Assembly: GCA_902763885.1 (NCBI GenBank)
Contig: CACWTU010000016.1
Location: forward strand, 1-51,462
Direction: 5' to 3'
Length of the DNA: 51,462 nt
DNA from: an uncultured Bacteroidales bacterium
GTDB taxonomy: Bacteria > Bacteroidota > Bacteroidia > Bacteroidales > Bacteroidaceae
Shown: in pieces, positions 8,577 to 26,829 of the stretch
Layout: each line of letters starts with the position of its first letter
Numbering within the stretch: the stretch's first letter is position 1
Made by a program: the position numbers and the translations under genes
The notes under the pieces: generated by a model
What the model was told of the DNA's origin: nothing
Seen by the model: the letters and a program-made list of their open reading frames with translations, nothing else
The model's database searches: none

Positions 8577-11500
8577 ATGAAGATACAAAGGAAAATACAA
8601 GAGTTTTGGAATTCTATGTTTGAAACACCATCAGATGAGTGTGGAAATCTTTTAGGTTACTCATATTATGCATTTATCAGCTATACTGAAAAAGATGAGA
8701 AATGGGCAGAATGGTTGCAATGGGAACTAGAACATTATTGTATCCCCACAAAAGTAAGAAGTGAATACAAAGAGTTGCCGGCTAGAATAAGACCTGTTTT
8801 TTTTTACAAAAACGATTTGGCAGGGGCGCATCTAAGTGGAGCAATTAAGAAAGAATTGGAACAATCAAAATACTTGATTGTTGTTTGTTCTCAAGCGAGT
8901 GCAAATAAAGAATGGGTTAATGATGAAGTTCATATATTTAAAGAAGAATTAGGTCGTGGGGATAAAATAATTCCTTTTGTAGTTGATGGCGAGATAAATA
9001 CGGATAATATTGAACAAGAATGTCTTCCTCGACCGATTAGAAATTTGCCTAGGGAAAAACAATTACGTTGCATAGATGTACGTGACTATGGGAAGAACAA
9101 AGCACTCGTCAATATTGTATCTACTTTATTAGATATTCGTTTCGATATTTTATGGAATCGATTTAAACGTGAGCAACATCAACGTTTTGCTATTCGTTGT
9201 GCAGTATTTGCATTGTTAACTGTCGTGTTGTTTGGTTGCTTGGACTATTTTTTACATACAAAATATGATTTTTTTATTGATATAGCTGACTGTTATGGCA
9301 TGCCTACCGGAATTATGCAGATTAACAAAGATGAGGCTAAAGGTCATTATAGGCTATACCGTTTTGAAAAGCGAAGAGGATTGTTGCGTCGAGTAGTCTA
9401 TGTTGACTGCGATGGGAATCCTCAGAATCACACAAATTCGGAATTGGCAGATCGTCCATGTATTCAAGAACTGTTATATAACAATGGTGAACTTGCAGTA
9501 ATAAATTGTAAAGATGCAACAAATAAAACTTTGTATATAATGCATCTTTCTAAAGATAAACTAGCCGCAGACCTAAAGGATGAAGATGAGAATCTATCTG
9601 CCAACTTTATTTATTCATCAACATCTGTTGACCAGGGAAAATCTCTCTTTCAACAAACAACCTTTTTAGATCAATTTCTTAAAACGCCGTCTAAAATAGG
9701 ACGATATATTTATGAGAGAGATGATGAAGGGTATATAACAAAAAAAATATATGCTAGACATAGTGCAGATAATGATATTGGTATGGATGCGAATGGCATA
9801 TCTGGTTTTGAATATGAGAGAGATTCTCTTCATCGAGTGACAAGAATTCGTTTTTTGGACAACCATTATGAATATAAAAGTAACAACCTAGGTGTGGCTG
9901 GAAAAAAATACGAATATGATATATACGGAAATCTGACTGTTGCTGAGTATGTGGATAAAGGCGGGAATCTTAAATACAATGAACACCATTGGGCTAAAGC
10001 TATAGACAAATATGATGCTAAAGGTTATTGCATAGAAGAACGTTTGTTTGGAACAGATGGAGAACCATGTTTCTCTGCTTATGGATATCATAAAATGGTA
10101 GTTTCTACAAATGGAAATAAGGAATCTTTTTTTTTCTATGATATCCATAATAATCCTTCTTATACATTGCCACTTGGAGAAGAACCGGGAGGCTACTCTG
10201 TACGGACAAATATTAGGAATAAGAAGGGACAAATAGTCGAAATGCAATTCATGGACTCACAGGGTAAGCCTTGCTATAATCAAAACCATCAGGCTATTAT
10301 AAAAGTTGAATATGATGATAACGGATTGGTTACAGATATACGTAACTATGATACGGAAAACCGTCCTTGCTCTAATAATAATGGTTTTTTTCATCAGAAA
10401 ATGTCATATAATCAAAAAGGTAATTTGACTGAAACATGTATTTATAATAACAGCGAGAGACCTGTTCAGAATATTATAGGTATCCATAAAATACAAAATA
10501 AATATGACAGTTCGGGGTATAGAATTGTAGAATCTCATGCTTACAATCAAGAAAATATGCCTATGAATTGTTATTTGTTTAATGGTGCCGCATGGGTGAA
10601 ATTTGGATATCATGGAAGTTCTAACTGGGTATCCGATTTATCATTTTATGGAGTTGACAATGAACCGATTGAAACCGTTACAGGTGCAAGAGTTAGTTTC
10701 GAAAGAGATTTAGATGGGCAAGTCAGAGTATGCAAGTATTATAATTATTGCAATGGTAATTATGAACTATATTCTAATTATAATCATTGTGCTATTATGG
10801 AGATTGAATATAATGAAATGGGAATGATGATTAATCGCTGTTTCTATGATGAAAATAAAAACCCGACATTACAATCTGGAGTGTTTCAAATAAGCTTGTC
10901 TTATACAAAAACGGGCCAAGTAGAGAAAATATGTCTATATGATACGTTACATGTTTTATATCTTGGTCCAGAAGGTTGGGCCATGCAAAAGTTCAATTAC
11001 AAAAATGGTGTCATAAGCTCAAACTCTTATTATGGAGAAGGAGGAGATGATGATAGTATTGAAATTATGGGTGTGTTTAGATACCAATATGAGATTGATG
11101 AATGTGGATATGTTCTTTCTCAAAGTGCTTTTAACAAAGTAATGAGACCAACAATTAACTTGCAAATTGGTGCACATAAAGTAGTTAATATTTATGATGA
11201 AAATAGACGGAATATAGGAAGAGATTATTATGATGCTGTAAATTTGAAACCTTTTGTTCGCATTAGACTTAAGTTGAATCAAAGAGGTTTGCAAACTGAA
11301 CAAACTGCATATAATACCCAAAATGAACTTGTCGAATCTCCACTTAACATGGGAGTCGCGAAGATTCAGTCAAGATATGATAATCAAGATAGGGTTATTT
11401 ATATGTGTGCTACCGACAAAAATGGAGAGAAAATGAATACTGTTGATGGCTTTGCGGAATGTATTTTCTCTTATGATAATGATATATATGAAACTGTTTA

Positions 11501-11861
11501 TTTAGATTCAAACCGAAATGTTGTAAATAACAATAGTTTGAATGATCCCTTTGGATATATGTTATTATATATTACTGAAACAGGTCAACGCTTGTTTCGT
11601 AAGACTATAAAGTTATCATATGATAATGAGAAGGAGACTGTTCGTGAAGCATACAGTTTCGATAAACAGAACGAAAAAATCCATATGGCTATTCAACTGG
11701 ATGACTGGCAAGTTCAAGTCTATGATGTCTCAAACAATAAGCAGATTAACTTCTATTCATTTGAAGATGAGTACGATGAATATGTTCATATTGTTGATAG
11801 TATACAAAACGATATTGAGATGAAATATGGGAAGCCTAAGCTTTATAAATATGTTGAATAA
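8577..11861 (+). CDS. TIR domain - transmembrane - long YD/GN-repeat protein
   Basis: This is a 1094-residue protein. A TIR domain lies at about residues 29-140: 'YYAFISYTEKDEKWAEW', 'LIVVCSQASANKEWVNDE'. W113 and E117 form the WxxxE motif that carries the catalytic Glu in many bacterial TIR NADases. A membrane helix follows at about 205-225. From about residue 370 to 1010, roughly 40-50-residue repeats each contain an aromatic-Asp-x-x-Gly/Asn turn ('YDIYGNL', 'YDAKGYC', 'YDENRRN') and a following D-x-x-x-x-P segment, similar to RHS-type repeats. I infer a membrane-tethered TIR enzyme with a large repeat ectodomain acting as sensor. A 29-codon frame overlaps its end. Confidence 0.85.
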   Translation: MKIQRKIQEFWNSMFETPSDECGNLLGYSYYAFISYTEKDEKWAEWLQWELEHYCIPTKVRSEYKELPARIRPVFFYKNDLAGAHLSGAIKKELEQSKYLIVVCSQASANKEWVNDEVHIFKEELGRGDKIIPFVVDGEINTDNIEQECLPRPIRNLPREKQLRCIDVRDYGKNKALVNIVSTLLDIRFDILWNRFKREQHQRFAIRCAVFALLTVVLFGCLDYFLHTKYDFFIDIADCYGMPTGIMQINKDEAKGHYRLYRFEKRRGLLRRVVYVDCDGNPQNHTNSELADRPCIQELLYNNGELAVINCKDATNKTLYIMHLSKDKLAADLKDEDENLSANFIYSSTSVDQGKSLFQQTTFLDQFLKTPSKIGRYIYERDDEGYITKKIYARHSADNDIGMDANGISGFEYERDSLHRVTRIRFLDNHYEYKSNNLGVAGKKYEYDIYGNLTVAEYVDKGGNLKYNEHHWAKAIDKYDAKGYCIEERLFGTDGEPCFSAYGYHKMVVSTNGNKESFFFYDIHNNPSYTLPLGEEPGGYSVRTNIRNKKGQIVEMQFMDSQGKPCYNQNHQAIIKVEYDDNGLVTDIRNYDTENRPCSNNNGFFHQKMSYNQKGNLTETCIYNNSERPVQNIIGIHKIQNKYDSSGYRIVESHAYNQENMPMNCYLFNGAAWVKFGYHGSSNWVSDLSFYGVDNEPIETVTGARVSFERDLDGQVRVCKYYNYCNGNYELYSNYNHCAIMEIEYNEMGMMINRCFYDENKNPTLQSGVFQISLSYTKTGQVEKICLYDTLHVLYLGPEGWAMQKFNYKNGVISSNSYYGEGGDDDSIEIMGVFRYQYEIDECGYVLSQSAFNKVMRPTINLQIGAHKVVNIYDENRRNIGRDYYDAVNLKPFVRIRLKLNQRGLQTEQTAYNTQNELVESPLNMGVAKIQSRYDNQDRVIYMCATDKNGEKMNTVDGFAECIFSYDNDIYETVYLDSNRNVVNNNSLNDPFGYMLLYITETGQRLFRKTIKLSYDNEKETVREAYSFDKQNEKIHMAIQLDDWQVQVYDVSNNKQINFYSFEDEYDEYVHIVDSIQNDIEMKYGKPKLYKYVE

Positions 11862-11940
11862 AAAACTTTTGTGGATGACTACAACCATCATCGTAGGCAT
11901 CATTGTATCAACCATATGGTTTCCGGTAATATATACCTGA
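11851..11940 (+). CDS. Tiny membrane peptide ORF, 29 aa
   Basis: An ATG at 11851, inside the last codons of the TIR-repeat gene, opens 29 codons, mostly one hydrophobic helix ('MTTTIIVGIIVSTIWFPVIY') after a short basic start (MLNKK). The start-stop overlap suggests translational coupling. No family is recognised; the frame is very short. Confidence 0.35.
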   Translation: MLNKKLLWMTTTIIVGIIVSTIWFPVIYT

Positions 11941-12001
11941 AAGAGGTAGCCTAATTAACTAATAACAAACAGGTAATTGTTTAAAAACGAGATTATTAAA
12001 T

Positions 12002-13525
12002 ATGAATATTAAACTATTTGCATCAAGAACAGATAAAGGTAAAGAATTGGCAAGTCTTTTGTCTGAAAGACTGCCTATGATTATTCATGCACTGGTGTCG
12101 AGTGAACCGGTTGATATTGAAGTTATTTATCCTGGTGATTTCAGATTTGGTCAACTGTTTTTCTTTTCATATGAAAGAAAAGCAGACCTTGTCATCTATG
12201 ATGCCTCAATTGAAGATGATGGCGGAGAAATAAAAATAGGAGAGAATTATGCATGTGCTCCTCATGCTCCGTATATGAATGATAATGTGTTGGTCGTTAG
12301 TAGAACTGTTTTGCCATTAAACTTTATTCCTCACACAACTAATGTTCTGCCTTTTGGAGAAGATTATATGTATGACGGGAGTCTGAAATATATTCGTTCT
12401 TATGACAATAATGATATAGTATTATGGGTAATAGAGCAAATAAAAAAGAGATATAAAGAGGGAAATCTCTTGAGGAAAAACAAAAAGAATGACTCATTGA
12501 CTCGAGATCCAGTAAAAAAAGATCCCAATCTTTTTATTCATGACGGAAGGAAAGTTGCATTTGTCAGTTATCGGAGTTATTATAATGAACCCCACAAATG
12601 CGGTCAATGTTCAGTCCAAGATTTAGAACGTATAATACTTGATTATCATAAAAAGATTAATCCTAACGAAGAGTGGCGAGTGCTATTTTATCCCCCTGGT
12701 TCTTTGTCCCAAGATTGTCCAACTGAAGATTTGAGATGGTCGTTAATGTGTTATGTGCAGAATGTATTTATACATGTTGATGAAGTTTGGATTTTCAATA
12801 GTGATAAAGAAGACGTATGTTCATACTGGGATTCATGGTTTACACAAGGTGAGTTTATATCATTAATGATTATAAATCAAGGGCTTAATGATTGTATGCC
12901 TAAGGTGTATATGTTTAATCCACATGATGGATTATTCAAGGAAATAAAAGATTTTCCTCATCTTTCAGATGAAGCTAGAACAGAATTGGGGGCAATTACT
13001 GCAAATTCAGATAATTTGTGGGGAGATAGGGCTGCTATGAAAAAGTTGATTTGGACTTTTGAGCATAAGTCAGAATTGTCGTTTTTAAAACGTGCCAAGT
13101 TAAAAGTTAATGGTTATTTGAATAAAAAAATATTGAAGGTGGCATCCTATTCCGAGATGGAAAAGTTGCATGCGTATAAATCCTCGTTTCTGACAAGTCG
13201 CGTTTTCTCCTGTAAAAAATGTTCAAAGAAAGGGATCTGTATGGATGATTTAAAAAATGATTCTTTTATACATGATTTCATTCATATCGGTGATGAATCA
13301 GAGCCCCAGGCAAGTCATAATAGAGAAAACGGGATTTTTGTCGTAAAGAAAGAGGATTTTTCAAAATGTATAGAACAGGGATATGTACAATGTCCTAACT
13401 GTCACTCTATAATCAAGATTAAACATGCTCCAGAACAATCTTTTTTCTTATGGCAAAGATACATACCCGATAATCCGTACGGTGATGCATTGATAGAAAA
13501 GGTTGAGGCATATAATGTGATTTAA
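12002..13525 (+). CDS. Unknown protein with a TIR-like middle and C-terminal zinc ribbon
   Basis: This is a 507-residue soluble protein not matched to a named family. Residues 1-120 look alpha/beta ('KADLVIYDAS'). Residues 184-292 resemble a TIR fold: 'KVAFVSYRSYY' as the first strand, 'VDEVWIFNSDKED' as the strand-loop, and 'YWDSWFTQGE' at the place of the WxxxE helix, though spacing there is WxxxxE from W279. The C-terminus has C404-x2-C407 and C464-x2-C467 pairs, plus C413, which suggests a zinc ribbon. It lies between two TIR genes on the same strand, so I infer an additional effector or adaptor. The TIR reading is tentative. Confidence 0.5.
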   Translation: MNIKLFASRTDKGKELASLLSERLPMIIHALVSSEPVDIEVIYPGDFRFGQLFFFSYERKADLVIYDASIEDDGGEIKIGENYACAPHAPYMNDNVLVVSRTVLPLNFIPHTTNVLPFGEDYMYDGSLKYIRSYDNNDIVLWVIEQIKKRYKEGNLLRKNKKNDSLTRDPVKKDPNLFIHDGRKVAFVSYRSYYNEPHKCGQCSVQDLERIILDYHKKINPNEEWRVLFYPPGSLSQDCPTEDLRWSLMCYVQNVFIHVDEVWIFNSDKEDVCSYWDSWFTQGEFISLMIINQGLNDCMPKVYMFNPHDGLFKEIKDFPHLSDEARTELGAITANSDNLWGDRAAMKKLIWTFEHKSELSFLKRAKLKVNGYLNKKILKVASYSEMEKLHAYKSSFLTSRVFSCKKCSKKGICMDDLKNDSFIHDFIHIGDESEPQASHNRENGIFVVKKEDFSKCIEQGYVQCPNCHSIIKIKHAPEQSFFLWQRYIPDNPYGDALIEKVEAYNVI

Positions 13526-13801
13526 ATAATTGATTTAAGGTTTTAGAAGCCGGTTATTGTGTGGAATCTCAGATGTGATAGGATTAAAGGACTAACGTAT
13601 TACTTTACAAACGAGATGCTTACTAAGGAATGTCCGGACAGAGTCGTGCACTAATCTCTGCTATTTGAACTAAAAAACAGCCTATGAGGCTGGGAAGTGC
13701 TATGAAATGTGTAACTTTTACAAGTCAACGTGGAAGAATACAAAGAATAGTCACTGCTTCGATTCAACTTAGAACAATAAACGGCAAATCCCTAAATAGC
13801 T
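13526..13801. promoter_or_regulatory. 276-bp spacer with two palindromes
   Basis: No gene is visible. It contains the perfect 10-bp palindrome TGTCCGGACA (13631-13640) and the hairpin CAGCCT-atg-AGGCTG (13678-13692). Neither is followed by a T-run. They could be operator sites for the downstream TPR-TIR gene pair. Confidence 0.35.
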
Positions 13802-16513
13802 ATGAATTACTATAAGTCTGCTCTAACTATATTGATTACAATATTGAGCCTGTCTTTGTACGGACAGACTCAGAAGGCGATTGTAAAGACAAGAGGCCGC
13901 ATGGTCAATGGAGAGCTTGTTCCGGGGGAAGGACTTAAAGATGCCACTGTAGATATTCAGGATGGCAATACCTACCTTGTCCAGAATGAAGATGGCTCGT
14001 TCTCTTTTCCTGTACAATCACAGTCTTTTGCGATAAAGTCTGTTCGTAAAAAAGACTACCAGTTAATTGATCCGGATATTCTAAAAAGGCTTCATCACTA
14101 TTCCAGTAATCCGCTCTACATAGTGATGGAAAAACCGGAGCAGCAAATGCAGGACCTTTTGGAATCTGAGCGCGACATCCGTCGTACCTTGCGGATTGAG
14201 ATACAAAAGCGGGAAGAAGAGTTGGATTCACTTAAAGAAGTGCACAAAATAACTATAGAAGAATACCAAAACGCATTACAGAAACTGTATGCCACTCAAA
14301 AGGATAATGAAAAACTAATTTCTGATATGGTCAGAGAGTATGCCATGATAGACTATGATCAGATGACAGATTTGAATCGGCGTATTCATTACGCGATTTC
14401 AAATGGAAGATTGGCCGAAGCTGATTCGTTGATTCATACCAAAGGCAGCATAAAGAGCCGCATCGAAAAGGTCAAGCATGAAGAGCAGATTTTGAAAGAA
14501 AGAGAAATCGAGATAGAGAATGCAAAAAGAGAACATGATGATGCAAAGGTCGGTATGATAAAAGAAAAGGAGGAAATTGAAGATTTTTGCATAACGCTTA
14601 ACAAGTTATTTATGCTTAAACTTAATATTGATTCTGCCGCATATTATATTGAGCAATTATTAAATCTAGATTCAACCGATGTATATTATATTGCCAAAGT
14701 AGCATCTTTCTATCATGGCATCTTCAATTTTGAGAAAGCAGAGAGTTATTATTTAAGGGCAATGCATATCTGTCAACAATCATTTGATGATTATGCATAT
14801 GAGATATGTTCATTTAATGTCAGTTTGGCAAATATTTACCAACACTACGAGGATTACAAAAAGGCGGAATTATTATTAAAAGAAAACATTGAAATAGTTA
14901 AACGCGCAGGAGGCAAGATTAGGTCAAAAATTGATGAAGAGAGAGATATCGATGAATTTACAAATCAAATTAGTCTTGCAGGATTATATACGACAATGAA
15001 ACAATATCCAAAAGCGGATTCTTTATTTATGAATATTATAAAGTTGTTGCAAAATGGTTATTATAAGTATGATGAAAATAAAATACTATCTTGTACAGCT
15101 TACATCTATAACATATTAGGAATAAATTACTTTTATGAAAATGAGTTTGAAAAGAGTGATAGTTTATTCTCGGAATCGATTATCATCGACCGCAGATTGA
15201 TTCTAAGGGATTCATGTTACTATGACCACCTTGGAACTGATCTATTTCTATTTGCTTTTTATAAAATAGGTAAAGGTTACTATAAAGAAAGTGAACCATT
15301 ATTGTTAGAAGCGTTGGATGCTATCAATAACTCTTCAAGAGAAGACAAAGAAATAGTTATCGCTCAAATCCATTCTAGTTTAGGAAAAGTTTGCAAGTAT
15401 ACAGGAAGGCCTTTTGAAAGCGAGATATGGTATAAAGAAGCCTTGACAGTACTTCGACAATATGCCCAGGCTATTCCAGAAGAATACAACAAAATTTTGA
15501 GTACCCCAGTCGAAGAATTTGCCGGTCTTTATAAAGATATGGGGCGTATTGATGAGAGTGAGACTCTTTATGAGGAAGCACTTAAAATTTACCGTTATTT
15601 GACACTCAGAGTTTCGAAAGGTTATATTCAATCAGTTGCATCCATAGAAAATGAATTAGGTAAAATAAAAGTATTACGAAAGCAATATGATGAAGCAGAT
15701 TCTCTGTTTAATGGGGCACTAAAAAAATTTGAACGATTGGCTAAAGATGACCAAACATACGATGCTTGTGTCATTCAGATTTTGGAGAATATATGTTCAC
15801 TATATTTTACAATAGGAGATGCGCTATATAAGGCTCACAATTTTTCAGAATCTGAAACATGGTTTTTAAAAATCTTGGAGATACAATCTGAGTTGTTTTC
15901 AAAGAATCCAGATTTTTACGAAATCAGTCTAACTTCGGTTTTGGAATATATGGGTGATTTCTATTGGGATGCACTACGTTTCCAAGAGGCAGAAGCCATG
16001 TATGACAGATGTCTGGAATTTTCAAAAAAATATGCAGAGAAGGATTCGGGTCATCAACTTAACTATACCAACTTTGTATACAAATTAAGCCAATTGTATC
16101 CCAAGATCAACAATTATAATGCCGCCTATAAGGTTGGCAACGAATGGCTTCCTCTCATAAAAAAACAATCAGAAGATTATCCTGATCTAATGCTTAAAGA
16201 TTATGTTGAAAGTCTTGGCAATCAGTCTTTTTACGCCATTTTTCAGACTAAGTACGCAGAAGCAGAGCAATTAGCTCGTGACGGGTTGGAAATAGATTCA
16301 ACTTTTCATTGGATAGCTGCCAATCTGGCATCTTCTCTTCTTTTCCAAGGCAAGTACAAGGATGCAAAAAAAATCTATCTTAAATACAAAGATGAGTTAA
16401 AGGATACATTTTTAGAAGATCTCAGCCAGTTTGATAAGGCCGGAGTTATTCCCAAAAAGAGAAAGAAAGATGTAGAAATAATAAAGAAACTTCTCACACA
16501 AGAAGACAATTGA
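13802..16513 (+). CDS. Exported coiled-coil/TPR protein, partner of TIR gene
   Basis: This is a 903-residue protein with an N-terminal signal or anchor ('SALTILITILSLSLYGQ'). A carboxypeptidase-regulatory-like beta domain follows (about 25-115, with 'RGRMVNGELVPGEGLKDATV' and 'SSNPLYIVME'), then a coiled coil (about 115-250) and TPR-like helix pairs to the end, with repeated 'A(D/E)SLF/YxxAL' patterns. From memory, the opening 'PLYxVMExPEQQMQD' and coiled-coil layout recur in Bacteroidales proteins encoded just upstream of TIR-TM proteins, as here (1-bp gap). I infer a periplasm-facing sensor or scaffold for the TIR protein. Its function is not established here. Confidence 0.75.
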   Translation: MNYYKSALTILITILSLSLYGQTQKAIVKTRGRMVNGELVPGEGLKDATVDIQDGNTYLVQNEDGSFSFPVQSQSFAIKSVRKKDYQLIDPDILKRLHHYSSNPLYIVMEKPEQQMQDLLESERDIRRTLRIEIQKREEELDSLKEVHKITIEEYQNALQKLYATQKDNEKLISDMVREYAMIDYDQMTDLNRRIHYAISNGRLAEADSLIHTKGSIKSRIEKVKHEEQILKEREIEIENAKREHDDAKVGMIKEKEEIEDFCITLNKLFMLKLNIDSAAYYIEQLLNLDSTDVYYIAKVASFYHGIFNFEKAESYYLRAMHICQQSFDDYAYEICSFNVSLANIYQHYEDYKKAELLLKENIEIVKRAGGKIRSKIDEERDIDEFTNQISLAGLYTTMKQYPKADSLFMNIIKLLQNGYYKYDENKILSCTAYIYNILGINYFYENEFEKSDSLFSESIIIDRRLILRDSCYYDHLGTDLFLFAFYKIGKGYYKESEPLLLEALDAINNSSREDKEIVIAQIHSSLGKVCKYTGRPFESEIWYKEALTVLRQYAQAIPEEYNKILSTPVEEFAGLYKDMGRIDESETLYEEALKIYRYLTLRVSKGYIQSVASIENELGKIKVLRKQYDEADSLFNGALKKFERLAKDDQTYDACVIQILENICSLYFTIGDALYKAHNFSESETWFLKILEIQSELFSKNPDFYEISLTSVLEYMGDFYWDALRFQEAEAMYDRCLEFSKKYAEKDSGHQLNYTNFVYKLSQLYPKINNYNAAYKVGNEWLPLIKKQSEDYPDLMLKDYVESLGNQSFYAIFQTKYAEAEQLARDGLEIDSTFHWIAANLASSLLFQGKYKDAKKIYLKYKDELKDTFLEDLSQFDKAGVIPKKRKKDVEIIKKLLTQEDN

Positions 16514-16514
16514 T

Positions 16515-17699
16515 ATGGAACAAAAAGAATACAGATTCTTTGCGTTCATCAGCTATAAGTCTGATGACCTGAAAGATGCTTGGAGACTCAAGAAGAAACT
16601 TGACAGTTACAAGCTACCTACACTATTATGCAAACAATTTAAAAAGGAAAAAAAACCAACTTATGAGGTCTTCCTTGATAAAACCAATATTCAGCCGGGC
16701 AATCTTACGAACGAGTTGAGGGAGAAGCTGGACAGATCACATTATCTTATTGTGGTTTGCTCTCCCCGTTCCGCTCAGTCGGAGTATGTAAAGGCGGAGA
16801 TTGACTGGTTTACTCGCAACGGAAGAGAAAACCAGGTATTCCTCTTCATTATAGAAAGCAATCCCAGTAATATAGAGGCAAGTTTTAATCCAGCCATCAA
16901 AGAGGTCCAAGAAAGATGGGCTGAGCATGACTGTGAAAAAAAGGAGATACTGGGTGTTAACATTAAGGAAAAGGGGGTGGACAAGATGTCGTTCTTATAT
17001 AGGTGGCCGATAATCGGCTCAATCCTACAGCGGGAACGAGCTTATATGCAACTGATTTCAGGTCTTCTAAATTTAGAGTTTAAACAACTTTGGTCATATC
17101 AAAAGATAAGATTTGCCGAAAAAGTCATTACATGGACGGTTGGAGTGATATTGTCTTTTAGCGCAATTGCATATACCTGGTGGGTAAATCAACCAGTAGA
17201 AATTGCCGTGAAATTAAATGAAGCAACCGTTCAAAACTCAATGTTACCTCCACTGAAAAATGCTGTAGTGAACATTATGTTTGACAACAAGACAGAAACG
17301 AATACCATTAGCTCAATAGAATCAAAAGCAGTATTTACAAATATTCCGCATAGTTTTTTGAATAAAGAAGTACATGTAAAAGTAAGATGCCAGAACTATC
17401 TGGATTTGGACACATCACTTGTGTTGACAAAGTTTTTTGTTCTTAACATTAATCGTAATCCATCTGTCTTTGGCAATATACATTTCCGTTTATATAACTC
17501 AAGTGTGGAAAAAGTTGTAACAGATGCTGAAGTTGAAATTGCGGGATACAAAACCGTTTCTGACGATAAGGGAATTGTGGATTTATTTATCCCTTTAGAG
17601 CAACAACGACCTTCATATCACATCGTAACAACAATCCCGTTGTATAATGACAAGATAGTCATGCCCTGCAGCTCAGATGTTGTTGTATTGACATATTAA
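16515..17699 (+). CDS. TIR domain - transmembrane protein
   Basis: This is a 394-residue protein. The TIR domain spans about residues 6-115: 'RFFAFISYKSDD', 'LIVVCSPRSAQSEYVKAE'. The WxxxE motif is altered to YxxxE, but E95 is kept, so NADase chemistry remains possible. A membrane helix lies at about 203-225, followed by a beta-rich extracytoplasmic region (about 230-394) that looks like two Ig- or carboxypeptidase-regulatory-like folds ('DAEVEIAGYKTVSDDKGIVD'). Together with the TPR gene 1 bp upstream it probably forms a membrane sensor-effector pair. Activity is inferred only. Confidence 0.85.
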   Translation: MEQKEYRFFAFISYKSDDLKDAWRLKKKLDSYKLPTLLCKQFKKEKKPTYEVFLDKTNIQPGNLTNELREKLDRSHYLIVVCSPRSAQSEYVKAEIDWFTRNGRENQVFLFIIESNPSNIEASFNPAIKEVQERWAEHDCEKKEILGVNIKEKGVDKMSFLYRWPIIGSILQRERAYMQLISGLLNLEFKQLWSYQKIRFAEKVITWTVGVILSFSAIAYTWWVNQPVEIAVKLNEATVQNSMLPPLKNAVVNIMFDNKTETNTISSIESKAVFTNIPHSFLNKEVHVKVRCQNYLDLDTSLVLTKFFVLNINRNPSVFGNIHFRLYNSSVEKVVTDAEVEIAGYKTVSDDKGIVDLFIPLEQQRPSYHIVTTIPLYNDKIVMPCSSDVVVLTY

Positions 17700-17789
17700 A
17701 CAGATAAAGAGGATACGAGGTGGATGATTGCGGCCTGACTAACATTTTGGGTTTTAACGAGTTGAAGCAATAGTTTATATAACTGGTAT

Positions 17790-18899
17790 ATGGAAGATAA
17801 AGAAAAGGAAATATGGATATTTCTATCCCATTCAAGTGCTGATTTTGATAAAGTTCGTCTTATAAGGAATTATTTGGAGGAGAAATCTTATAGACCATTA
17901 ATGTTCTATCTTAAATGCCTTGAGACTGAAGAAGAAACATTTGATCTAATCAAAAGAGAAATAGATGTCAGGACTCGTTTTATACTTTGTAATAGTAAAA
18001 ATGCTCAAAATTCTGATTGGGTAAGAAAAGAGATGGATTACATAAAAAATGCGAGGCCAAAACGCTCATATGAAGTCATCGATCTCTCAAAACCATTAGA
18101 ACAATTGAAACCTGAGTTAGATAAGTATATGGATAAGACCAATGTTTTTATATCTTATTCATTGCTGAGGCAACATGTTTTTGATATGATTAATGAGCGT
18201 TTATCAAAATATGATATTCGTGTTTTTTATCCGGATAAGGATGCCAAATTACGGGAATCATTGGGTGACCAAGATATAAAAAATACAATAACATATGTGT
18301 CCAGTTATGGATATTATATATTATTGGCAGATGATGACTCCATAAAAGGTGAGTGGGCTATTCGGGAATTAGAGCAGGCTATTGAGATGGATGCAAAGAT
18401 TTTTGTTATTGCATTATCTGAGAATGCATTAGAATGGTGTCGTTATAACAACAAAAATATTCCCAAGAGTCATATAGTAAAAATATCAGTAAATCCTTTA
18501 TATGATAGTTATACGGCTGATGAAATTACAGATATAATCCTTTCTAAAGTATTAACACCAGGTGCAATAATTACTCATGGAGATAATTTCAGGACGGGAA
18601 AGAATGCCGCAGTTGATGAAAAAGAGGCCAATCGCCTAAATGAAATACTTATTCGTATTGCAAAAGAGACACATAGTCCGGATACTAAAGTGTTTTTAGT
18701 TGATAGTTATTCAAAAGGTCTTCATGGCTTTCCAAAAGATTTAAATAAAGCTCAAAAGTATATTTCGAAACGTAAATCTTCTATTGTTGATGATAATATA
18801 GCCCATTATTTAAATATTACTCAGGAAAGAATACGCAAGAAACTGACTCGTTCTATCAAAAGACATTCTGGCTTGGGAGATCGAGACAAAAAAATCTAA
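17790..18899 (+). CDS. Tandem TIR-domain protein
   Basis: This is a 369-residue soluble protein with two TIR domains. The first, about residues 6-95, has 'EIWIFLSHSSADFDKV' and 'SDWVRKE' (W77, E81). The second, about 117-235, has 'TNVFISYSLLRQHVF' and 'GEWAIRE' (W189, E193). Both keep WxxxE. The C-terminal 120 residues are helical and unassigned. There is no membrane helix, unlike the other two clear TIR genes, which suggests a cytoplasmic role. Two intact TIR domains in one chain fit the known need for TIR self-association in NADases. It is 90 bp after the TIR-TM gene. Confidence 0.8.
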   Translation: MEDKEKEIWIFLSHSSADFDKVRLIRNYLEEKSYRPLMFYLKCLETEEETFDLIKREIDVRTRFILCNSKNAQNSDWVRKEMDYIKNARPKRSYEVIDLSKPLEQLKPELDKYMDKTNVFISYSLLRQHVFDMINERLSKYDIRVFYPDKDAKLRESLGDQDIKNTITYVSSYGYYILLADDDSIKGEWAIRELEQAIEMDAKIFVIALSENALEWCRYNNKNIPKSHIVKISVNPLYDSYTADEITDIILSKVLTPGAIITHGDNFRTGKNAAVDEKEANRLNEILIRIAKETHSPDTKVFLVDSYSKGLHGFPKDLNKAQKYISKRKSSIVDDNIAHYLNITQERIRKKLTRSIKRHSGLGDRDKKI

Positions 18900-18955
18900 T
18901 TGTGAGATAAAGTGATAGAAACAATAGAAAAATGACTCTATATTTGAAGAAAAAA

Positions 18956-18963
18956 TATCTTTG
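18956..18963 (+). promoter_or_regulatory. Bacteroidota -7 promoter box (TATCTTTG)
   Basis: TATCTTTG matches the Bacteroidota -7 consensus TAnnTTTG and lies 22 bp before the ATG of the sigma-like gene. No clear TTTG -33 box is at the usual spacing. It suggests the sigma-like gene can be transcribed by the housekeeping sigma. Confidence 0.4.
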
Positions 18964-18985
18964 CTAACAAAAAAGTATTAAGAAT

Positions 18986-19849
18986 ATGAAATTTAGACAT
19001 GAGACCTTAGAAGATGATATGGTGTACCGAGACCATGTTGTTGAGAATGAAAGAGAATATGTTAATGACTTCTTGGGCCCTTTCTCAAAAGATATCCTTC
19101 AGTATGTTGGAAAGTATTTTATGATAGTGCAACCATCAGTTGTTTATAATCAAGTGAATAAGTCTTACTATGAGGATTATGCATCGCCTATGAAAAGTGA
19201 TTTTTATATGTTTATAGCTAAACCTTTTTTTGTAGGCGATGATAATGTGAATATGTCAAATCCGATTCCTCAATGGAATAATTTGAGGAAGTATGAAGCA
19301 AAAAACAATTGTAAGTTACACTCCTTTGTATATACGATAACTTTTCGAGAATTTTATAAAAGAGCAAAAACACTTCAAAAGTCACCTGATGTTGGAACAG
19401 TTTTTACAGAAGAGGTTTTTAATTTTTTTGAGCAACTATTTTATGATCAGGATGTGTCTTCTGACGATTTTGGTGCTGAAATTCAAACTGATTTAAGGAA
19501 TGCATTAACTGATTTAAGGAACATCAATACTAATACTGTTAACGAAGATAATGTTAGGTATAAATTTGATGGTGAGAAAGACTATCGCGTTTTGGAACTA
19601 TGCATTATGTATGAATATGATTGGGAAGATGTTGCTGATGAGCTAAGAGATTACTTTAAGAAACCATTTTCTGGTCCATTATCAGAGATTCCAACTGAAG
19701 AGAAGAAAGACATACAAAGTAGAATTGCTCAGTGGAAAAAAAGAGCGATACTTCACCTTACTGATATGGTTTGCGATAGTGACAAATATATCAATTTAAA
19801 GAGAGCTATTAGACAGAATAAGATAAACGGAACTCTTAAAACTAAATGA
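18986..19849 (+). CDS. Divergent ECF-like sigma factor
   Basis: This 287-residue protein fits a stretched sigma-70/ECF layout. Residues about 25-130 include 'NCKLHSFVYTITFREFYKRA', like the 'L.sWLytIa.n...r..r' end of region 2. Residues about 165-262 include 'RVLELCIMYEYDWEDVADEL', like the region-4 helix-turn-helix, followed by 'RIAQWKKRAILHL'. Between them the linker is longer than in common ECFs. The next gene overlaps by ATGA and starts with an anti-sigma-like segment, which supports the reading. Without a profile search this remains a moderate call. Confidence 0.55.
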   Translation: MKFRHETLEDDMVYRDHVVENEREYVNDFLGPFSKDILQYVGKYFMIVQPSVVYNQVNKSYYEDYASPMKSDFYMFIAKPFFVGDDNVNMSNPIPQWNNLRKYEAKNNCKLHSFVYTITFREFYKRAKTLQKSPDVGTVFTEEVFNFFEQLFYDQDVSSDDFGAEIQTDLRNALTDLRNINTNTVNEDNVRYKFDGEKDYRVLELCIMYEYDWEDVADELRDYFKKPFSGPLSEIPTEEKKDIQSRIAQWKKRAILHLTDMVCDSDKYINLKRAIRQNKINGTLKTK

Positions 19850-20889
19850 TTAATATGGTTAGAGACGAAGAAATAGCTGCTTATCTGGAAGGAAGATTAT
19901 CCAGAGCAGAGATAGGGGACTTGAAAAAAAGACTTGACGAGAATGGCGAATCTGGTCTACTTACTCATTTGTTATACTCAGAAGCTCTATATTTGGACGA
20001 GTTGGATTTTGGTGAAGAGAGGGGCGTTGTTGATAATCAGAAAAAAATAATATCTATTTCCATTCCTTTAAATAAAAATGAAAGTAGAATTTTGGCTCTT
20101 GACCCGATGCGTCTAGCAGCAGCAAAAACTGACGGCTATTTGTGCGACCTTGAATGTGAAGAATACATTTTGTTGTCATTGGGATATGATGTTAATAAAA
20201 AGACCTTATTAGATGAAGCATATAAGAACAAATGGATGAAAGAAAAGGGTATGCCTATTTACCAGATAGGTCGCCTGTTGGAGAAGTATAAACTATCAGT
20301 TGCCCGCAAATACAATCAATATACAATAGAAGATATTGAAGGATGTCTGGAACAAGGTAATAAACTTATTGCTGTTGTTAATGCGCAAAAACTGTTGTTG
20401 AAGGATAATCTCAATCAACAAGAATCTGAAGAGAAAAATCCCAATCATGCGGTTGTTATTATTTCTCTTTCTGTTAGTGAAAACAAAGTCTACCTTTTTG
20501 ATCCGCAAACAGGGAATGCTCAGGACGAATGCTCTTTAGATGATTTTGTTCAAGCATGGAGTGATTCTCAGAATTTTCTTGTTGTATCAAACACTCGTGA
20601 TAATTTTGAATATGATCCACAACCAATTAATGTTGATGATATCAAGTTGGATCCTTCGCTTGGCGAACTTGTTGAGATTCTGGCAGAAAATAACCATGAA
20701 ATATGGGCCTCAGATCGCAAAAAGGAAGGTTGGACATATGGACCTAAGAGAAATGATGATAAGAAAGAAAACCCAGATATGCGTCCGTATTCTGATTTAG
20801 AAGATAAAGAAAAAGAATATGATCGCAAAATGGCAATAAATACTTTGAAGCTAGCACAAAAGATTGGATATAAGATTGTTAAGGAATAA
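19846..20889 (+). CDS. Anti-sigma-like head + C39-like cysteine peptidase + RyR domain
   Basis: This 347-residue protein has three parts. Residues 1-55 ('DEEIAAYLEGRLSRAEIGDL') look like the N-terminus of an anti-sigma factor. Residues about 85-250 look like a papain-fold C39-type peptidase: C100 in 'LCDLECEEYILLSLGY', H201 in 'NPNHAVVI' and D219 in 'LFDPQTG' are the probable triad. Residues about 268-345 are a ryanodine-receptor (RyR) repeat: 'NNHEIWASDRKKEGWTYGP', then 'EKEYDRKMAINTLK'. The gene overlaps the sigma-like gene by ATGA and is followed by a terminator. I infer a regulator whose peptidase is gated by a ligand at the RyR domain. Confidence 0.72.
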   Translation: MINMVRDEEIAAYLEGRLSRAEIGDLKKRLDENGESGLLTHLLYSEALYLDELDFGEERGVVDNQKKIISISIPLNKNESRILALDPMRLAAAKTDGYLCDLECEEYILLSLGYDVNKKTLLDEAYKNKWMKEKGMPIYQIGRLLEKYKLSVARKYNQYTIEDIEGCLEQGNKLIAVVNAQKLLLKDNLNQQESEEKNPNHAVVIISLSVSENKVYLFDPQTGNAQDECSLDDFVQAWSDSQNFLVVSNTRDNFEYDPQPINVDDIKLDPSLGELVEILAENNHEIWASDRKKEGWTYGPKRNDDKKENPDMRPYSDLEDKEKEYDRKMAINTLKLAQKIGYKIVKE

Positions 20890-20910
20890 ATTACCTATAA
20901 AAATAACATG

Positions 20911-20944
20911 AAATGTGAAAGGTTTTCTTATACCTTTCACATTT
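20911..20944 (+). terminator. Intrinsic terminator after block 1
   Basis: AAATGTGAAAGGT (20911-20923) pairs with ACCTTTCACATTT (20932-20944), with an 8-nt loop and a following T-run. It closes the TIR/sigma block and separates it from the RyR/peptidase block. Confidence 0.85.
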
Positions 20945-21033
20945 TTTTTGTTATCTATAATGATAGAATAAACAACTTGTTGCCTCATATAGATACAATA
21001 CAAACAATTATCAACCTTTAATCAATTAAAACT

Positions 21034-21180
21034 ATGGGACCTATTGTATCACAAATTGGAACTGCTTCCGTTCAGGTTGTTCAACAGATTCTGCAATCAC
21101 CTCACACAAGGTATATGTGCGTTAAGGCTACTGAAGCAATTATTAAGAATCTGAAACAGAGAATCTCTATTGTAAGTTGA
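21034..21180 (+). CDS. Small protein, 48 aa, unknown
   Basis: The ATG at 21034 opens 48 codons beginning 'MGPIVSQIGTASVQVVQQIL' and ending at TGA 21180. It has an amphipathic first half and a basic second half ('AIIKNLKQRISIVS'). It is the first frame after the block-1 terminator and precedes the free RyR gene by 25 bp. I do not recognise it. It may be a peptide substrate or leader for the neighbouring cysteine peptidase, but it has no double-glycine leader, so this is speculation. Confidence 0.45.
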   Translation: MGPIVSQIGTASVQVVQQILQSPHTRYMCVKATEAIIKNLKQRISIVS

Positions 21181-21205
21181 TTGTTTATAATCAAGTTAGT
21201 TACTT

Positions 21206-21502
21206 ATGAAAAAGAGGGATACTTATGTGCCAAAGGTGGTTGATGTCGCGGATATACAACTACCGGAAGAATTAACTCCTTTGGTGGAGAAGATGGCGAA
21301 GAATGTTCATGATGTATGGGCGGCGTCTCGCATAAAAGAGGGGTGGACCTATGGTCCTTTTCGAGATGATAAAACGAAAACAAATCCATGCTTGGTTCCT
21401 TATGAGAACTTACCAGACAATGAGAGAACCTATGATCGGAACACTGCCTTGGGAACTCTTAAACTCATCATTAAGTTGGGTTTTAAGATATCGGTGAATT
21501 GA
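21206..21502 (+). CDS. Stand-alone RyR-domain protein
   Basis: This 98-residue protein is almost entirely one ryanodine-receptor repeat (about residues 22-96): 'NVHDVWAASRIKEGWTYGP' is near-identical in pattern to the RyR part of the upstream fusion, followed by 'NPCLVPYENLPDNERTYDRN' and 'ALGTLKLIIKLGFKI'. Bacterial RyR domains are thought to be ligand-binding modules. Here it is detached from any other domain and sits 80 bp before a free C39-like peptidase, so the two genes supply in trans what the upstream fusion joins in one chain. Confidence 0.85.
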   Translation: MKKRDTYVPKVVDVADIQLPEELTPLVEKMAKNVHDVWAASRIKEGWTYGPFRDDKTKTNPCLVPYENLPDNERTYDRNTALGTLKLIIKLGFKISVN

Positions 21503-21582
21503 TGATAGAATTCTTGAATAGAGAACTCTAAATAAAAAAAGAGAATAATTAATTGATTGTTTAACAAAAAAGAGAGAATGTT

Positions 21583-22182
21583 ATGAACACTACTTTTGAA
21601 ATCGGCTTTGCCGAAGCCAATCATGATTTTGGCTTACCTTCTGAAAATGTAAACATTCCCAGTATGATTCAGCATACAGATGATGGTTGTGCTTTTCATT
21701 CAGAAGCCACTATTCTTCATGAGTTTGGAATCAATGTTTCTGAAGAGCAGCTTCAGCGTGAAGGCGCAGAAGAAGGATGGTATCGTCAGGGACATGGTAC
21801 TCCGTTACAGTATATGGGAAGCCATTTAGAGAACCACGGAGTTCCCGTTAATGTTACAGAAGGTAATGGTATTGATAACCTTATTAATGAGTTCTCACAG
21901 GGGCATCGTGTTATTGTTGCATTGGATTCTGGTGAAATATGGTATCCTGGTTTACAGGAACATATGGAAGATCTCATTTATGGCGGTTGTCCTGATCATG
22001 CTCTTATTGTAGATGGAATAAACACATCGGACAACACCATTACCTTGACAGATTCAGGTACAGGTAATTTCAGAATGGAATATCCTTTGGATACATTTAT
22101 GGACGCATGGGAGGATTCCAATTGTCTGATGGTTGCAACAGCTGTCTCTCCTGAGGAATTTTTGGCTCAAGGTGGTGTTTGA
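21583..22182 (+). CDS. C39-like papain-fold cysteine peptidase
   Basis: This 199-residue protein has the C39-type core: C36 in 'HTDDGCAFHSEATILHEFGI', H139 in 'CPDHALIVDG' and D157 in 'LTDSGTGNF' are the likely catalytic residues. A helical middle includes 'GTPLQYMGSHLENHGV'. Its active-site helix aligns with that of the upstream fusion (C, then x3-C/S-E, then IL). No signal peptide or transporter domain is present, so it is not a bacteriocin exporter; it likely acts in the cytoplasm. It ends near a GG pair (AQGGV). The substrate is unknown. Confidence 0.72.
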   Translation: MNTTFEIGFAEANHDFGLPSENVNIPSMIQHTDDGCAFHSEATILHEFGINVSEEQLQREGAEEGWYRQGHGTPLQYMGSHLENHGVPVNVTEGNGIDNLINEFSQGHRVIVALDSGEIWYPGLQEHMEDLIYGGCPDHALIVDGINTSDNTITLTDSGTGNFRMEYPLDTFMDAWEDSNCLMVATAVSPEEFLAQGGV

Positions 22183-22233
22183 CATACAACTCAACAATCT
22201 AACCAAACATTTTTAACCTAAATACTCCACATC

Positions 22234-22887
22234 ATGAATGCTATAGAAACAAAACAAAACTATACTCTTCTCAGGTTGCTTTTCATGAAAAAAGGCCGGG
22301 ATCTTTCAAATCTTATTGCTGCACGTATAGACTCTAAAGCAGATGATATGTTGTGCCAGATGATGCATGATATAGAATGGTGTGGAGATCCTAAAGGTTT
22401 TTATGAGAAGGAGATCCCTTTTCGCATAGAAAATCAGCTAAGGAAAGATATGCAGCAGATACCAGAGCTGATAGCTCAGCAATATGCTACAAATTTGACA
22501 TGGTTGCAGGGCAACCTTAAAAGGCTTGGATGTCAGAACTTCACTATTCCATTAACTGGATACAATATGACTGGTTCTGAACAATGTCAAGATAAACTTA
22601 ATCTGATAGATATCCACAGAGTTCGTCTATGCTCAAGATTAGGAACACTATTTGTAGCATTATGCTTATCCGGTTTTGGATTGGGCGCGTTTGTGGGTAG
22701 TATGTTGTGCGGAACAGGAGCAGAGGAACTACTTATATCAAAGAGCAAATCATCCAAAGAGATTATAAAACAAGTTGTGCCAACAATTGTAGACAATTAC
22801 AGGTTGCAGTTAAAGTCTCATGTATTAGGGGTCTTGGCAGAAGTTGACTCAAACATTATGAACGAACTAAAAAAGATAGAGTTATGA
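22234..22887 (+). CDS. Helical membrane protein, dynamin-stalk-like, no GTPase (A)
   Basis: This 217-residue mostly helical protein has one glycine-rich hydrophobic segment at about 136-160 ('LFVALCLSGFGLGAFVGSML') flanked by amphipathic helices. This resembles the membrane-paddle region of bacterial dynamin-like proteins, but the protein is short and has no P-loop. It overlaps the next gene, which has the same plan, by ATGA, so the two probably act as a pair. I infer a membrane-acting component, perhaps pore or bilayer-remodelling. No family is firmly recognised. Confidence 0.5.
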   Translation: MNAIETKQNYTLLRLLFMKKGRDLSNLIAARIDSKADDMLCQMMHDIEWCGDPKGFYEKEIPFRIENQLRKDMQQIPELIAQQYATNLTWLQGNLKRLGCQNFTIPLTGYNMTGSEQCQDKLNLIDIHRVRLCSRLGTLFVALCLSGFGLGAFVGSMLCGTGAEELLISKSKSSKEIIKQVVPTIVDNYRLQLKSHVLGVLAEVDSNIMNELKKIEL

Positions 22888-23711
22888 AGACAACAAATTA
22901 TCCGGCATCCATCATCGACGATGGCGCACACATAATTATTGAACAAATTGAGGAAGAATGTAGAGCTATCCATTCTCATGCAGAATCATCTGCGCTTGCT
23001 TTATTTAGTAACCTTTCATCCAAAATACCAGGATGGATTAACGGGTACAGGTGTCATAATCATGTTGACAATATCTTTAAAATGCAAAGTCAGGTCAAGG
23101 CATATACAGAGGAACTGACAGGTTACCTTCAAGATGATATAAAAAGAGAAACACAAGATTGGGTTTCAAATAGCTTTGTTCCAATGATTCAAAGAGAAAT
23201 AACCACATTATCTAAGGCTGTTGATGCCCGTACTGATGAATATTATGGTAAGTTAAGCAAATTGTCTTTGTCTGTAGATGTCAATAAGAATGATATTGTC
23301 ATAAGAACAACTCCCAGTAAACGTAACCGTATCCTTAGTACGGGTGCTTGTATCCTTATTGGAGATCTTGGTGGCGCTATCATGGGGGGCGCAGGTGGAA
23401 GCGACGCAATGTTCAAGACATTGGGATGTGAGTTCGGGGCAGGAATAGTATTGGGAATAATATCATTGTTTACGCCAGTAGGTCTGGCTGCTATGGTATG
23501 CAGTGCTATAATTTCAGCATTTATAGGTGGATCATGGGCTCTTAATTCCGTGGAGAAAAACATACGTAAGACTCTTGTTGAAAAATGTCGTGAAAGTATT
23601 AACTCTTCAGAAAGAAAAAACAGATTAATTAGAGATATAGATACTAAGATAGATTCATACTTAAATATCATTCTTGAGGATGTAAGGTGGAATCTTAAGC
23701 AATGCTCTTAA
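22884..23711 (+). CDS. Helical membrane protein, dynamin-stalk-like, no GTPase (B)
   Basis: This is a 275-residue protein. A helical N-terminal half (1-130) is followed by a long glycine-rich hydrophobic region at about 150-220 ('DLGGAIMGGAGGSDAMF', 'GIISLFTPVGLAAMVCSAII') and a charged helical tail. That layout matches the C-terminal half of bacterial dynamin-like GTPases, without the GTPase. It is coupled to the preceding gene by an ATGA overlap. The partner ATPase could be the AAA protein encoded next. Confidence 0.5.
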   Translation: MKTTNYPASIIDDGAHIIIEQIEEECRAIHSHAESSALALFSNLSSKIPGWINGYRCHNHVDNIFKMQSQVKAYTEELTGYLQDDIKRETQDWVSNSFVPMIQREITTLSKAVDARTDEYYGKLSKLSLSVDVNKNDIVIRTTPSKRNRILSTGACILIGDLGGAIMGGAGGSDAMFKTLGCEFGAGIVLGIISLFTPVGLAAMVCSAIISAFIGGSWALNSVEKNIRKTLVEKCRESINSSERKNRLIRDIDTKIDSYLNIILEDVRWNLKQCS

Positions 23712-23767
23712 CCTGATTTCGTTACCAATAAATGGCGTTTTAATAAATTAACACTTGTTCTTGAAAG

Positions 23768-23820
23768 AAATTGTCTTGGTGGACTCTCTTTTTAATTGAG
23801 ATGTGAAACCGAGACAATTT
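23768..23820 (+). promoter_or_regulatory. 13-bp stem just upstream of the AAA gene start
   Basis: AAATTGTCTTGGT (23768-23780) pairs with ACCGAGACAATTT (23808-23820) with one G-T wobble and a 27-nt loop. It ends 5 nt before the likely ATG at 23826, so it would cover the ribosome-binding region when folded. There is no T-run. It may control translation or be a protein-binding site. Confidence 0.5.
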
Positions 23821-23825
23821 GTTTT

Positions 23826-26354: not shown

Positions 26355-26770
26355 TGTACTACATTGATATTATTAGACGCCAATACCCATACGAGATGAT
26401 GGGAATGGATAAGGATGAGTCTTACGAGTTTTATCGTAACAAACTTTTGGAACACTACATGCCAGGCCTCAACGGCCAGTGTATGTCAGAGGGCAAAGCA
26501 ATAGAGGCTGCTGGTATTGTACTAAATGAGATGGTGGCTCTTCATGAGGATCGTTGTGATCACATTAATTCTGACCTTGAGATACATCTATATGCAGAAT
26601 GGCTTAAAATAAATCGTCACCAGTTTTGGTCTTTCAATATAGACAATCTTGCAAGAATCTTGGGAAATGGAATTTATACATGGTGCAGAAATCACAAAAA
26701 AGAAAATAGCTTGATCATCAGTGAAAGCCTTCTTATTGCGATAGAACAACTACCTTGGATCCATAGATAG
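26354..26770 (+). CDS. Unknown helical protein, 138 aa
   Basis: I do not recognise this protein. It is predicted mainly helical, with no signal or membrane segment, and contains 'AIEAAGIVLNEMVALHEDRC' and a Trp-rich part ('WLKINRHQFWSFNIDNL'). The start overlaps the previous stop by one base. A strong terminator follows 12 bp after its stop, so it is the last gene of block 2. Confidence 0.65.
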   Translation: MYYIDIIRRQYPYEMMGMDKDESYEFYRNKLLEHYMPGLNGQCMSEGKAIEAAGIVLNEMVALHEDRCDHINSDLEIHLYAEWLKINRHQFWSFNIDNLARILGNGIYTWCRNHKKENSLIISESLLIAIEQLPWIHR

Positions 26771-26782
26771 GCTGAAAAAAAA

Positions 26783-26817
26783 GAGCTGAGACATGATGAA
26801 TCTCAGCTCCTTTTTTT
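26783..26817. terminator. Bidirectional intrinsic terminator after block 2
   Basis: GAGCTGAGA (26783-26791) pairs with TCTCAGCTC (26801-26809), with an A-run before and a T-run (26811-26817) after. It sits between the convergent block-2 operon and a minus-strand small-peptide gene, and can serve both. Confidence 0.9.
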
Positions 26818-26829
26818 GATGTGTCTCCA

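Follow-up and report, generated by a model that had tools for sequence, protein, structure and literature searches.

The window, a stretch of 51,462 nucleotides (nt), is contig 16 (CACWTU010000016.1) of the 2.71-Mb genome of an uncultured Bacteroidales bacterium (Bacteroidaceae; assembly GCA_902763885.1), and it carries TIR genes together with genes for the Repeat domain of the animal ryanodine receptor (RyR; PF02026), one of which is fused to a C39-like peptidase domain. The G+C content is 0.32-0.44 at about 8-32 kb, compared with 0.43-0.52 outside, and the TIR, RyR, and C39-like genes all lie on the forward (+) strand of this AT-rich island. As the first-pass annotation had proposed, Pfam finds three TIR genes with four TIR domains (TIR_2) and two RyR-domain genes. 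The linkage between TIR and RyR genes is real, recurrent in other genomes, and far beyond chance. The genes concerned are listed here (E, expectation value; aa, amino acids).

8577..11861, + strand: TIR-transmembrane protein with a long C-terminal tail, 1094 aa; TIR_2 E 2.9e-15 (Pfam), hydrophobic segment 204-222, motif Glu aligned
16515..17699, + strand: TIR protein, 394 aa; TIR_2 E 7.7e-10 (Pfam), motif Glu aligned
17790..18899, + strand: double-TIR protein, 369 aa, the TIR closest to the RyR genes; TIR_2 E 1.1e-17 in two stretches, both Glu aligned
18986..19849, + strand: 287-aa protein at the place held by a sigma-like gene in relatives (by position); no significant profile match
19846..20889, + strand: fusion of an anti-sigma-like helix, a C39-like papain fold and RyR, 347 aa (Pfam, alignment, AlphaFold2 model, Foldseek)
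20611-20880, + strand: RyR domain of this fusion, residues 256-345; PF02026 E 2.2e-30
21206..21502, + strand: standalone RyR, 98 aa; PF02026 E 3e-34, PDB relative 3nrt E 3.8e-33 (phmmer)
21583..22182, + strand: second C39-like protein, 199 aa; weak Peptidase_C39_2-type match, E 1.2e-3

From the 17790 gene onward, the gaps on this strand are 86, -4, 316, and 80 nt. The TIR genes had been described as lying directly beside the RyR genes, which holds only for the double-TIR gene, ending 946 nt before the C39-RyR gene; even here the 18986-19849 gene, which has no annotation, intervenes and overlaps the C39-RyR gene by 4 nt. The TIR gene at 8577-11861 ends about 8 kb upstream of the C39-RyR gene and may be regarded as an outlying member, a candidate producer of a signal from nicotinamide adenine dinucleotide (NAD).

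Of 151 genomes of the same family, 23 carry PF02026, as do 30 of 344 from the order; the window's genome is counted in both samples. TIR genes (PF13676 matches at E ≤0.001) were searched for in 21 RyR-positive genomes of the family and 29 of the order. In the 29 order genomes, all from other families, 14 of 33 RyR clusters had a TIR within 5 kb, where 0.23 would be expected (p 3.5e-23). In the family sample the count was 12 of 28 against 0.33 expected from TIR density, or 10 of 26 against 0.29 when the window's genome was removed. RyR rows below the cut-off were excluded (4/38 in the family, 1/41 in the order), as were three rows of the window's genome from the order sample; several of the order-wide RyR rows are long frames of 476-925 aa, which are channel-like proteins and not standalone RyR.

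The survey of TIR-RyR co-occurrence suggested by the first-pass annotation gave the same picture in 101 de-duplicated bacterial loci, 27 from the family and 74 from a genome collection; the latter are biased to window-like RyRs because they were chosen as the best-scoring of 552 confirmed relatives. A TIR lies within 5 kb of RyR in 55 of these loci, within 2 kb in 33, within 100 nt in 22, and at 5-10 kb in none. The figure of 55 is a lower bound, since contigs end and many loci are shorter than 20 kb, and as the loci are related, the counts are not independent events. The strand is the same as that of RyR in 49 of the 55 loci, TIR and RyR genes overlap by 1-4 nt in three, and 16 of 93 standalone RyR genes touch a same-strand TIR gene. 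Two 46-aa TIR fragments were left out of the counts, and the frame L106 4848-5126 was counted as RyR, not TIR. Viral contigs have a TIR near RyR in one of 14, two of the 14 being duplicates. This sole contig (L149:5345-7754), in which the two genes are 19 nt apart, may be host DNA.

It could be argued that TIR and RyR genes merely accumulate in defence or conflict islands and have no joint function. The window region is indeed an AT-rich island with many unrelated genes, and some genomes have their TIR genes in groups (genome G124 has nine matches on a single contig). However, the empty ring at 5-10 kb, the shared strand, the short gene overlaps, and the involvement of at least five TIR sequence clusters (the TIR genes of RyR loci form five clusters of at least five loci each) all speak against it, as do the sister gene pairs without RyR described below, which have no TIR. 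Such coincidence is considered very improbable, and it was rejected on the grounds of genome TIR density, the empty ring, and the RyR-less sister pairs.

The Glu at the W/YxxxE motif column, which we take to be the NADase residue (E642 of SARM1), is present in all 107 aligned TIR domains of the survey, the window's four included; this alignment takes in duplicates and viral loci, and one further row, a mis-hit, was removed. By their residues, the TIRs of these loci look catalytic. In 35 of 81 TIR genes within 5 kb of RyR, an N-terminal TIR is followed by a hydrophobic segment. PADLOC classes the double-TIR protein as ThsB-like (E 2.2e-13), and NCBIfam gives one TIR gene a weak match to a type III Thoeris protein (15 bits, cut-off 220). 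No known Thoeris effector (SIR2-SLOG, TM-macro, or caspase-like) was found in the genes at 19846, 21206, and 21583 by Pfam and PADLOC scans, and none of these three had a PADLOC match.

The two RyR domains of the window score 105.2 and 117.6 bits with PF02026 (curated cut-off 27.4). Phage members of this family are reported to bind or cleave the 2' and 3' isomers of cyclic ADP-ribose (cADPR), two homologues with nanomolar constants (preprint PMC13232231; statements on it refer to the portions available). Among eight homologues of the phage protein RyDEP, six bound and none cleaved, while RyDEP itself cleaved the signal; with 3'cADPR, its ligand contacts are H75, W78, H100, and D117, of which H75 and D117 are catalytic (PMC13232231). 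The 98-aa RyR of the window has H35, W38, N60, and D77 at these places with identical spacing, so that three of the four pocket residues are kept. All 97 standalone RyR rows with letters there, and 32 of 32 fusions, have the H, W, and D; at the place of H100, 85 of 98 standalone rows have His and one has a gap.

A tree of 135 RyR domains served only for the grouping of fusion rows and for changes of the TIR label. The 26 fusion rows group together (SH-aLRT 98), and the TIR label is scattered over the tree with 38 changes, a figure inflated by poor resolution, 78 of 132 inner branches being poorly supported.

The kept catalytic pair raises the question of whether the standalone RyR is an off-switch and not a receptor, which like RyDEP would hydrolyse or soak up the TIR product and so protect the host. 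H35 and D77 have the same 42-residue spacing as in RyDEP, the 98-aa protein has no effector domain, and by eye the RyR gene is the last of its run in several loci. Yet there are also fusions of RyR with C39, PrsW, and channel-like parts (see below), which fit a reader better, and RyDEP cleaved the signal whereas none of the eight tested homologues did (PMC13232231, available portions). We consider the off-switch rather unlikely as the sole explanation, although such a role can hold alongside the one preferred here.

The C39-RyR protein has a Peptidase_C39_2 match above the cut-off (E 7e-7) and no membrane segment. Its AlphaFold model has a mean predicted local distance difference test score (pLDDT) of 77, falling below 50 between residues 45 and 97, and consists of a helical N-terminus, a C39 fold (Foldseek 3erv, E 1e-5; also PCAT1), and a RyR fold (6uam and 3nrt, E 1e-7). 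In all, 22 RyR fusions with a C39-like domain were found, the window's included. Their C39 domain has the Cys and His in 22 of 22 and the Asp in 18, the window's among them (C100 and H201 in the window). RyR-peptidase genes mostly without TIR were not found: 14 of the 22 fusions have a TIR within 5 kb.

Two of these fusions have no upstream gene on the contig; directly before 19 of the other 20 is a sigma-like gene. Seventeen of the 20 upstream genes belong to one sigma-like family (representative TIGR02937 E 1.3e-9, under the model's cut-off), with gaps to the fusion of -59 to +6 nt, the starts being taken mechanically. The upstream genes of L044 and L053 also match TIGR02937 below the cut-off (5.5e-9 and 1.2e-8; hhalign 4.5e-10 for L053). 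The remaining upstream gene is that of the window, the 287-aa gene; comparison with the relatives' sigma profile gave hhalign E 0.032 and probability 1.6. Only one distant relative of its product was found in the 151 family genomes, a 272-aa protein (L152, genome G020; E 2e-4, 27% identical), which itself has weak sigma matches (TIGR02937 E 0.0068, hhalign E 0.01). One nt after its gene comes a 93-aa gene 41% identical to the N-terminus of C39-RyR (E 1e-13 for this pair of proteins). This arrangement is that of genes for a sigma factor and its inhibitor, which lends indirect support to a sigma-like nature of the 287-aa gene.

A control is provided by sister pairs without RyR. A search with the second C39 gene (21583) yielded 14 family loci (L173-L186) in which a soluble anti-sigma/C39-like gene is accompanied by a sigma-like gene, overlapping or within 27 nt in 14 of 14; the fetched stretches were 3 to 20 kb, and two genomes supply two loci each. 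None of the 14 has a TIR, compared with 14 of 22 RyR fusions having one within 5 kb (Fisher p 9e-5); within one family the comparison is 0 of 14 with 6 of 7 (p 1.3e-4). Therefore, TIR is associated with the RyR and not with the sigma pair. No description of sigma and C39-like pairs without RyR was found among the 10 of 411 hits listed by a literature word search.

Other RyR fusions came from de-novo clustering of neighbouring genes, in which two families of about 720-780 aa are present in 42 (family A) and 28 (family B) of 106 loci, a set whose cluster counts include duplicates; 26 and 17 members, respectively, were aligned. In family A, 12 of the 26 have Slo-like RCK matches, and PDB profiles matched are DMI1, CASTOR, the TrkA-domain channel 4gx0/4gx5, KCNT1, and MthK (5e-4 to 3e-2). 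A member in the window's own genome (contig 5, L004:7612-9789) lies directly before a third RyR gene, which is 0.8 kb from a TIR. Its model (mean pLDDT 86.8, predicted template modelling score 0.84; Foldseek GsuK, Slo1, CASTOR) contains pore helices, two RCK-type domains, and a C-terminal helical RyR-type domain. Family A is thus predicted, by model, to be an RCK channel ending in a RyR-type domain. This RyR assignment relies on a weak Pfam match in 3 of 26 (best 7e-5), 3nrt at E 0.77, and kept residues: every aligned row has the W, the second H, and the D of the pocket, and all but one have the first H. The RyR match of family B is over or at the Pfam cut-off, and its 17 aligned members all have H, W, H, and D. 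A TIR or a channel-like gene lies within 5 kb in 84 of the 101 loci, and both do in 28; 28 of 93 standalone RyR genes touch a same-strand channel-like gene. PrsW-type proteases occur in 13 loci, once fused to RyR (L045). This fusion with an intramembrane protease of the PrsW type (L045:9204-10274, - strand, 356 aa) adjoins a second RyR gene and a RyR channel-like gene.

Taken together, these loci may well form a modular bacterial system, a reading that we hold with modest confidence, in which RyR domains recognise a TIR product and in response control a sigma/anti-sigma-C39 pair and channels. The TIR enzymes would make an ADP-ribose-type (cADPR-type) nucleotide from NAD, the double-TIR gene being the likely producer in the window, and RyR domains would read it. 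The C39-RyR protein would be a cytoplasmic regulator whose N-terminal helix holds the sigma-like factor (18986-19849). Binding of the TIR product to its RyR domain would be turned by the C39-like domain into sigma release, via self-cleavage or a change of shape. The 98-aa RyR may pair with C39-RyR as the second half of a two-fold RyR dimer, or it may bind and remove the signal. In the sister loci, one of them in the window's genome, the RyR-type reader would sit on the predicted RCK-gated channel, which would open. The domains, the linkage, the kept catalytic and most pocket residues, and the sigma-like genes before the fusion in relatives are read from sequence, and the channel fold comes from prediction; from these we infer the ligand, the direction from TIR to RyR, sigma release, channel opening, and peptidase activity.

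The earlier proposal that the TIR product binds RyR and so switches a peptidase therefore stands in part. Recurrent linkage, catalytic-looking TIRs, cADPR binding by phage RyR (in the portions of PMC13232231 available), and a mostly kept pocket support it; the role given to the second peptidase gene is not supported. Peptidase switching is only one possible output, with predicted channels and PrsW as others, and the RyR-fused C39 is better read, by its sequence context, as part of an anti-sigma factor than as a plain effector peptidase. The usual oxyanion Gln of C39 peptidases lies six residues before the Cys. It is missing in 22 of 22 C39-RyR fusions, which makes their peptidase activity uncertain.

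This absence weighs against the proposed system, and several other observations weigh in the same direction. The window's 287-aa gene has no significant sigma match in NCBIfam or Pfam, and two RyR fusions beside TIR (L055 and L056) seem by eye to have lost the C39 His. At the place of H100, a phosphate contact in RyDEP, both window RyR domains have Asn, and of 32 fusions 15 have His while 17 do not. No TIR lies within 5 kb in 46 of 101 RyR loci and in 8 of 22 C39-RyR fusions, and no PF13676 match at all is present in 10 of 50 RyR genomes (4/21 family, 6/29 order). No cADPR test of any bacterial host RyR was found in the parts of the literature searched. Crystal structures of human RyR3 Repeat12 hold ATP, ADP, and AMP-PCP (PDB titles), and so other adenine nucleotides may be the RyR ligand.

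The last of these points, together with the loci lacking a nearby TIR, would also suit a reversed order, in which the RyR ligand is an ordinary adenine nucleotide (ATP, ADP, NAD, or one made by phage) and the TIR genes, switched on through the sigma pair, are the NAD-destroying effectors; the sigma/anti-sigma arrangement fits such expression control of an operon. What it leaves unexplained is that the RyR-less sigma-C39 pairs have no TIR, that standalone RyR genes directly adjoin same-strand TIR genes, and that the two phage homologues are reported to bind 2'/3'cADPR with nanomolar constants (PMC13232231, available portions). The reversed order appears improbable to us; it and the off-switch are each compatible with part of the data.

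If TIR products are indeed read by RyR domains, the animal-style link from an NAD messenger to a ryanodine-receptor domain may already exist in bacteria. A bolder version, possible but in our view doubtful, is that bacteria hold a complete forerunner of animal cADPR signalling, in which TIR makes a cADPR isomer that is received by RyR on a pore-forming RCK channel, on a sigma inhibitor, and on proteases; in that case, the Repeat domains of the animal ryanodine receptor would derive from a nucleotide reader with a channel already under its control. Whether RyR repeats bind cADPR, and where the link originated, are old open questions, and the RyDEP preprint, in its available portions, answers the binding question only for phage proteins. 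These loci offer small soluble host proteins beside a putative producer enzyme, and hence a direct way to ask the cADPR question. With them, the known outputs of TIR signalling would grow by a sigma/anti-sigma switch and a predicted RCK channel. They also suggest why phages carry RyR proteins, which may copy a host receptor.

As in Thoeris types I, II, and IV, a TIR would supply a nucleotide-binding effector of its own operon with an ADP-ribose-type signal; the type IV effector is a caspase-like protease and its signal N7-cADPR (PMC12847820, in the portions available). Unlike in Thoeris, the reader here is RyR, and the sigma/anti-sigma-C39 regulator and the predicted RCK channel take the effector's place; any anti-phage role is putative. 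Signalling from TIR to a protease is already known from type IV Thoeris (PMC12847820, same portions). With RyDEP and other phage RyR, the window proteins share the PF02026 family and three of the four named pocket residues; in contrast, the phage proteins inactivate host signals, while here host genes occur in TIR runs and as regulator fusions, with Asn at the place of H100 (PMC13232231, available portions). The RyR-like protein of Bacteroides thetaiotaomicron (PDB 3nrt/4n05/6uag), compared by structure only, is likewise a standalone bacterial RyR and is the phmmer relative of the 98-aa protein listed above.

The L004 model has the two-helix pore and two RCK domains of CASTOR/DMI1, GsuK, and Slo1, whereas this protein, outside the window, additionally bears the C-terminal RyR-type domain with pocket residues. 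As in extracytoplasmic function (ECF) sigma/anti-sigma pairs (TIGR02937), a sigma-like gene of these loci overlaps or touches that of its presumed inhibitor, which has a short N-terminal helical segment; unlike in those pairs, the presumed inhibitor here has a C39-like fold and RyR and, in the window, no membrane segment, and the sigma matches are below the curated cut-off. Among the matches listed by literature word searches, and apart from the phage preprint, none described a bacterial TIR-RyR operon, a RyR-bearing bacterial channel, or a C39-RyR anti-sigma protein. Burroughs et al. in 2015 reportedly discuss TIR-linked nucleotide readers and may already mention bacterial RyR. Nothing on bacterial RyR was found in the available parts of PMC7016017, PMC9503650, PMC7159879, and PMC8195603.

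Each RyR gene had been said to be associated with a C39-like peptidase. This is so for the fusion; the neighbouring gene at 21583-22182 is probably, by its gene context, not part of the RyR circuit and belongs to another module. It matches the C39-RyR protein by phmmer (about 1e-12), its Pfam C39 match of 19.9 bits is below the 24-bit cut-off, and the Cys, His, Asp, and the Gln six before the Cys can be read by eye. Its closest relative (L040/L154) lies beside the same membrane pair as that at 22234-23711 in the window, and others among the relatives L154-L159 adjoin GTPase-like genes (by eye), which is why membership in the circuit was judged unlikely; L040 is itself a RyR locus. In the window, the stretch 21583-25259 comprises this gene and the membrane pair, followed by an AAA ATPase with a PADLOC IetA match (E 1.2e-19).

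The remaining genes near the TIR and RyR genes are as follows.

12002-13525: gene for 507 aa, flanked by two TIR genes; neither Pfam nor NCBIfam gives a significant match
13802..16513, + strand: TPR protein, 903 aa, 1 nt before the TIR gene at 16515; TPR_12 E 1.1e-32 (Pfam)
22234-22887 and 22884-23711, + strand: two overlapping membrane-protein genes, placed outside the RyR circuit

The sequence cluster of the TPR protein is present in 11 of the 106 bacterial RyR loci. A search of 7000-33500 for known RNAs gave no match, and the sole match in a scan for Bacteroides-type promoters is loose and lies inside a gene. The second half of the island (26354-32340) holds an AAA ATPase, DUF1232, a WG-repeat protein, and a VWA-like gene; the cluster of the WG-repeat protein occurs in 17 of the 106 loci. 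On the left, the island is bordered by a RelA/SpoT-like gene (5258-7153), for which, among the matches listed in 37 genus genomes, only G508 reaches 88% identity, other near-full-length matches being at most 51%. Elsewhere, RyR is fused to a shortened C39-like domain in L055:9510-10181 and L056:3002-3700, which overlap or adjoin a TIR gene, and a 271-aa protein (L101:9476-10291) ends in RyR after an unrelated N-terminal domain that is phage-like by eye.

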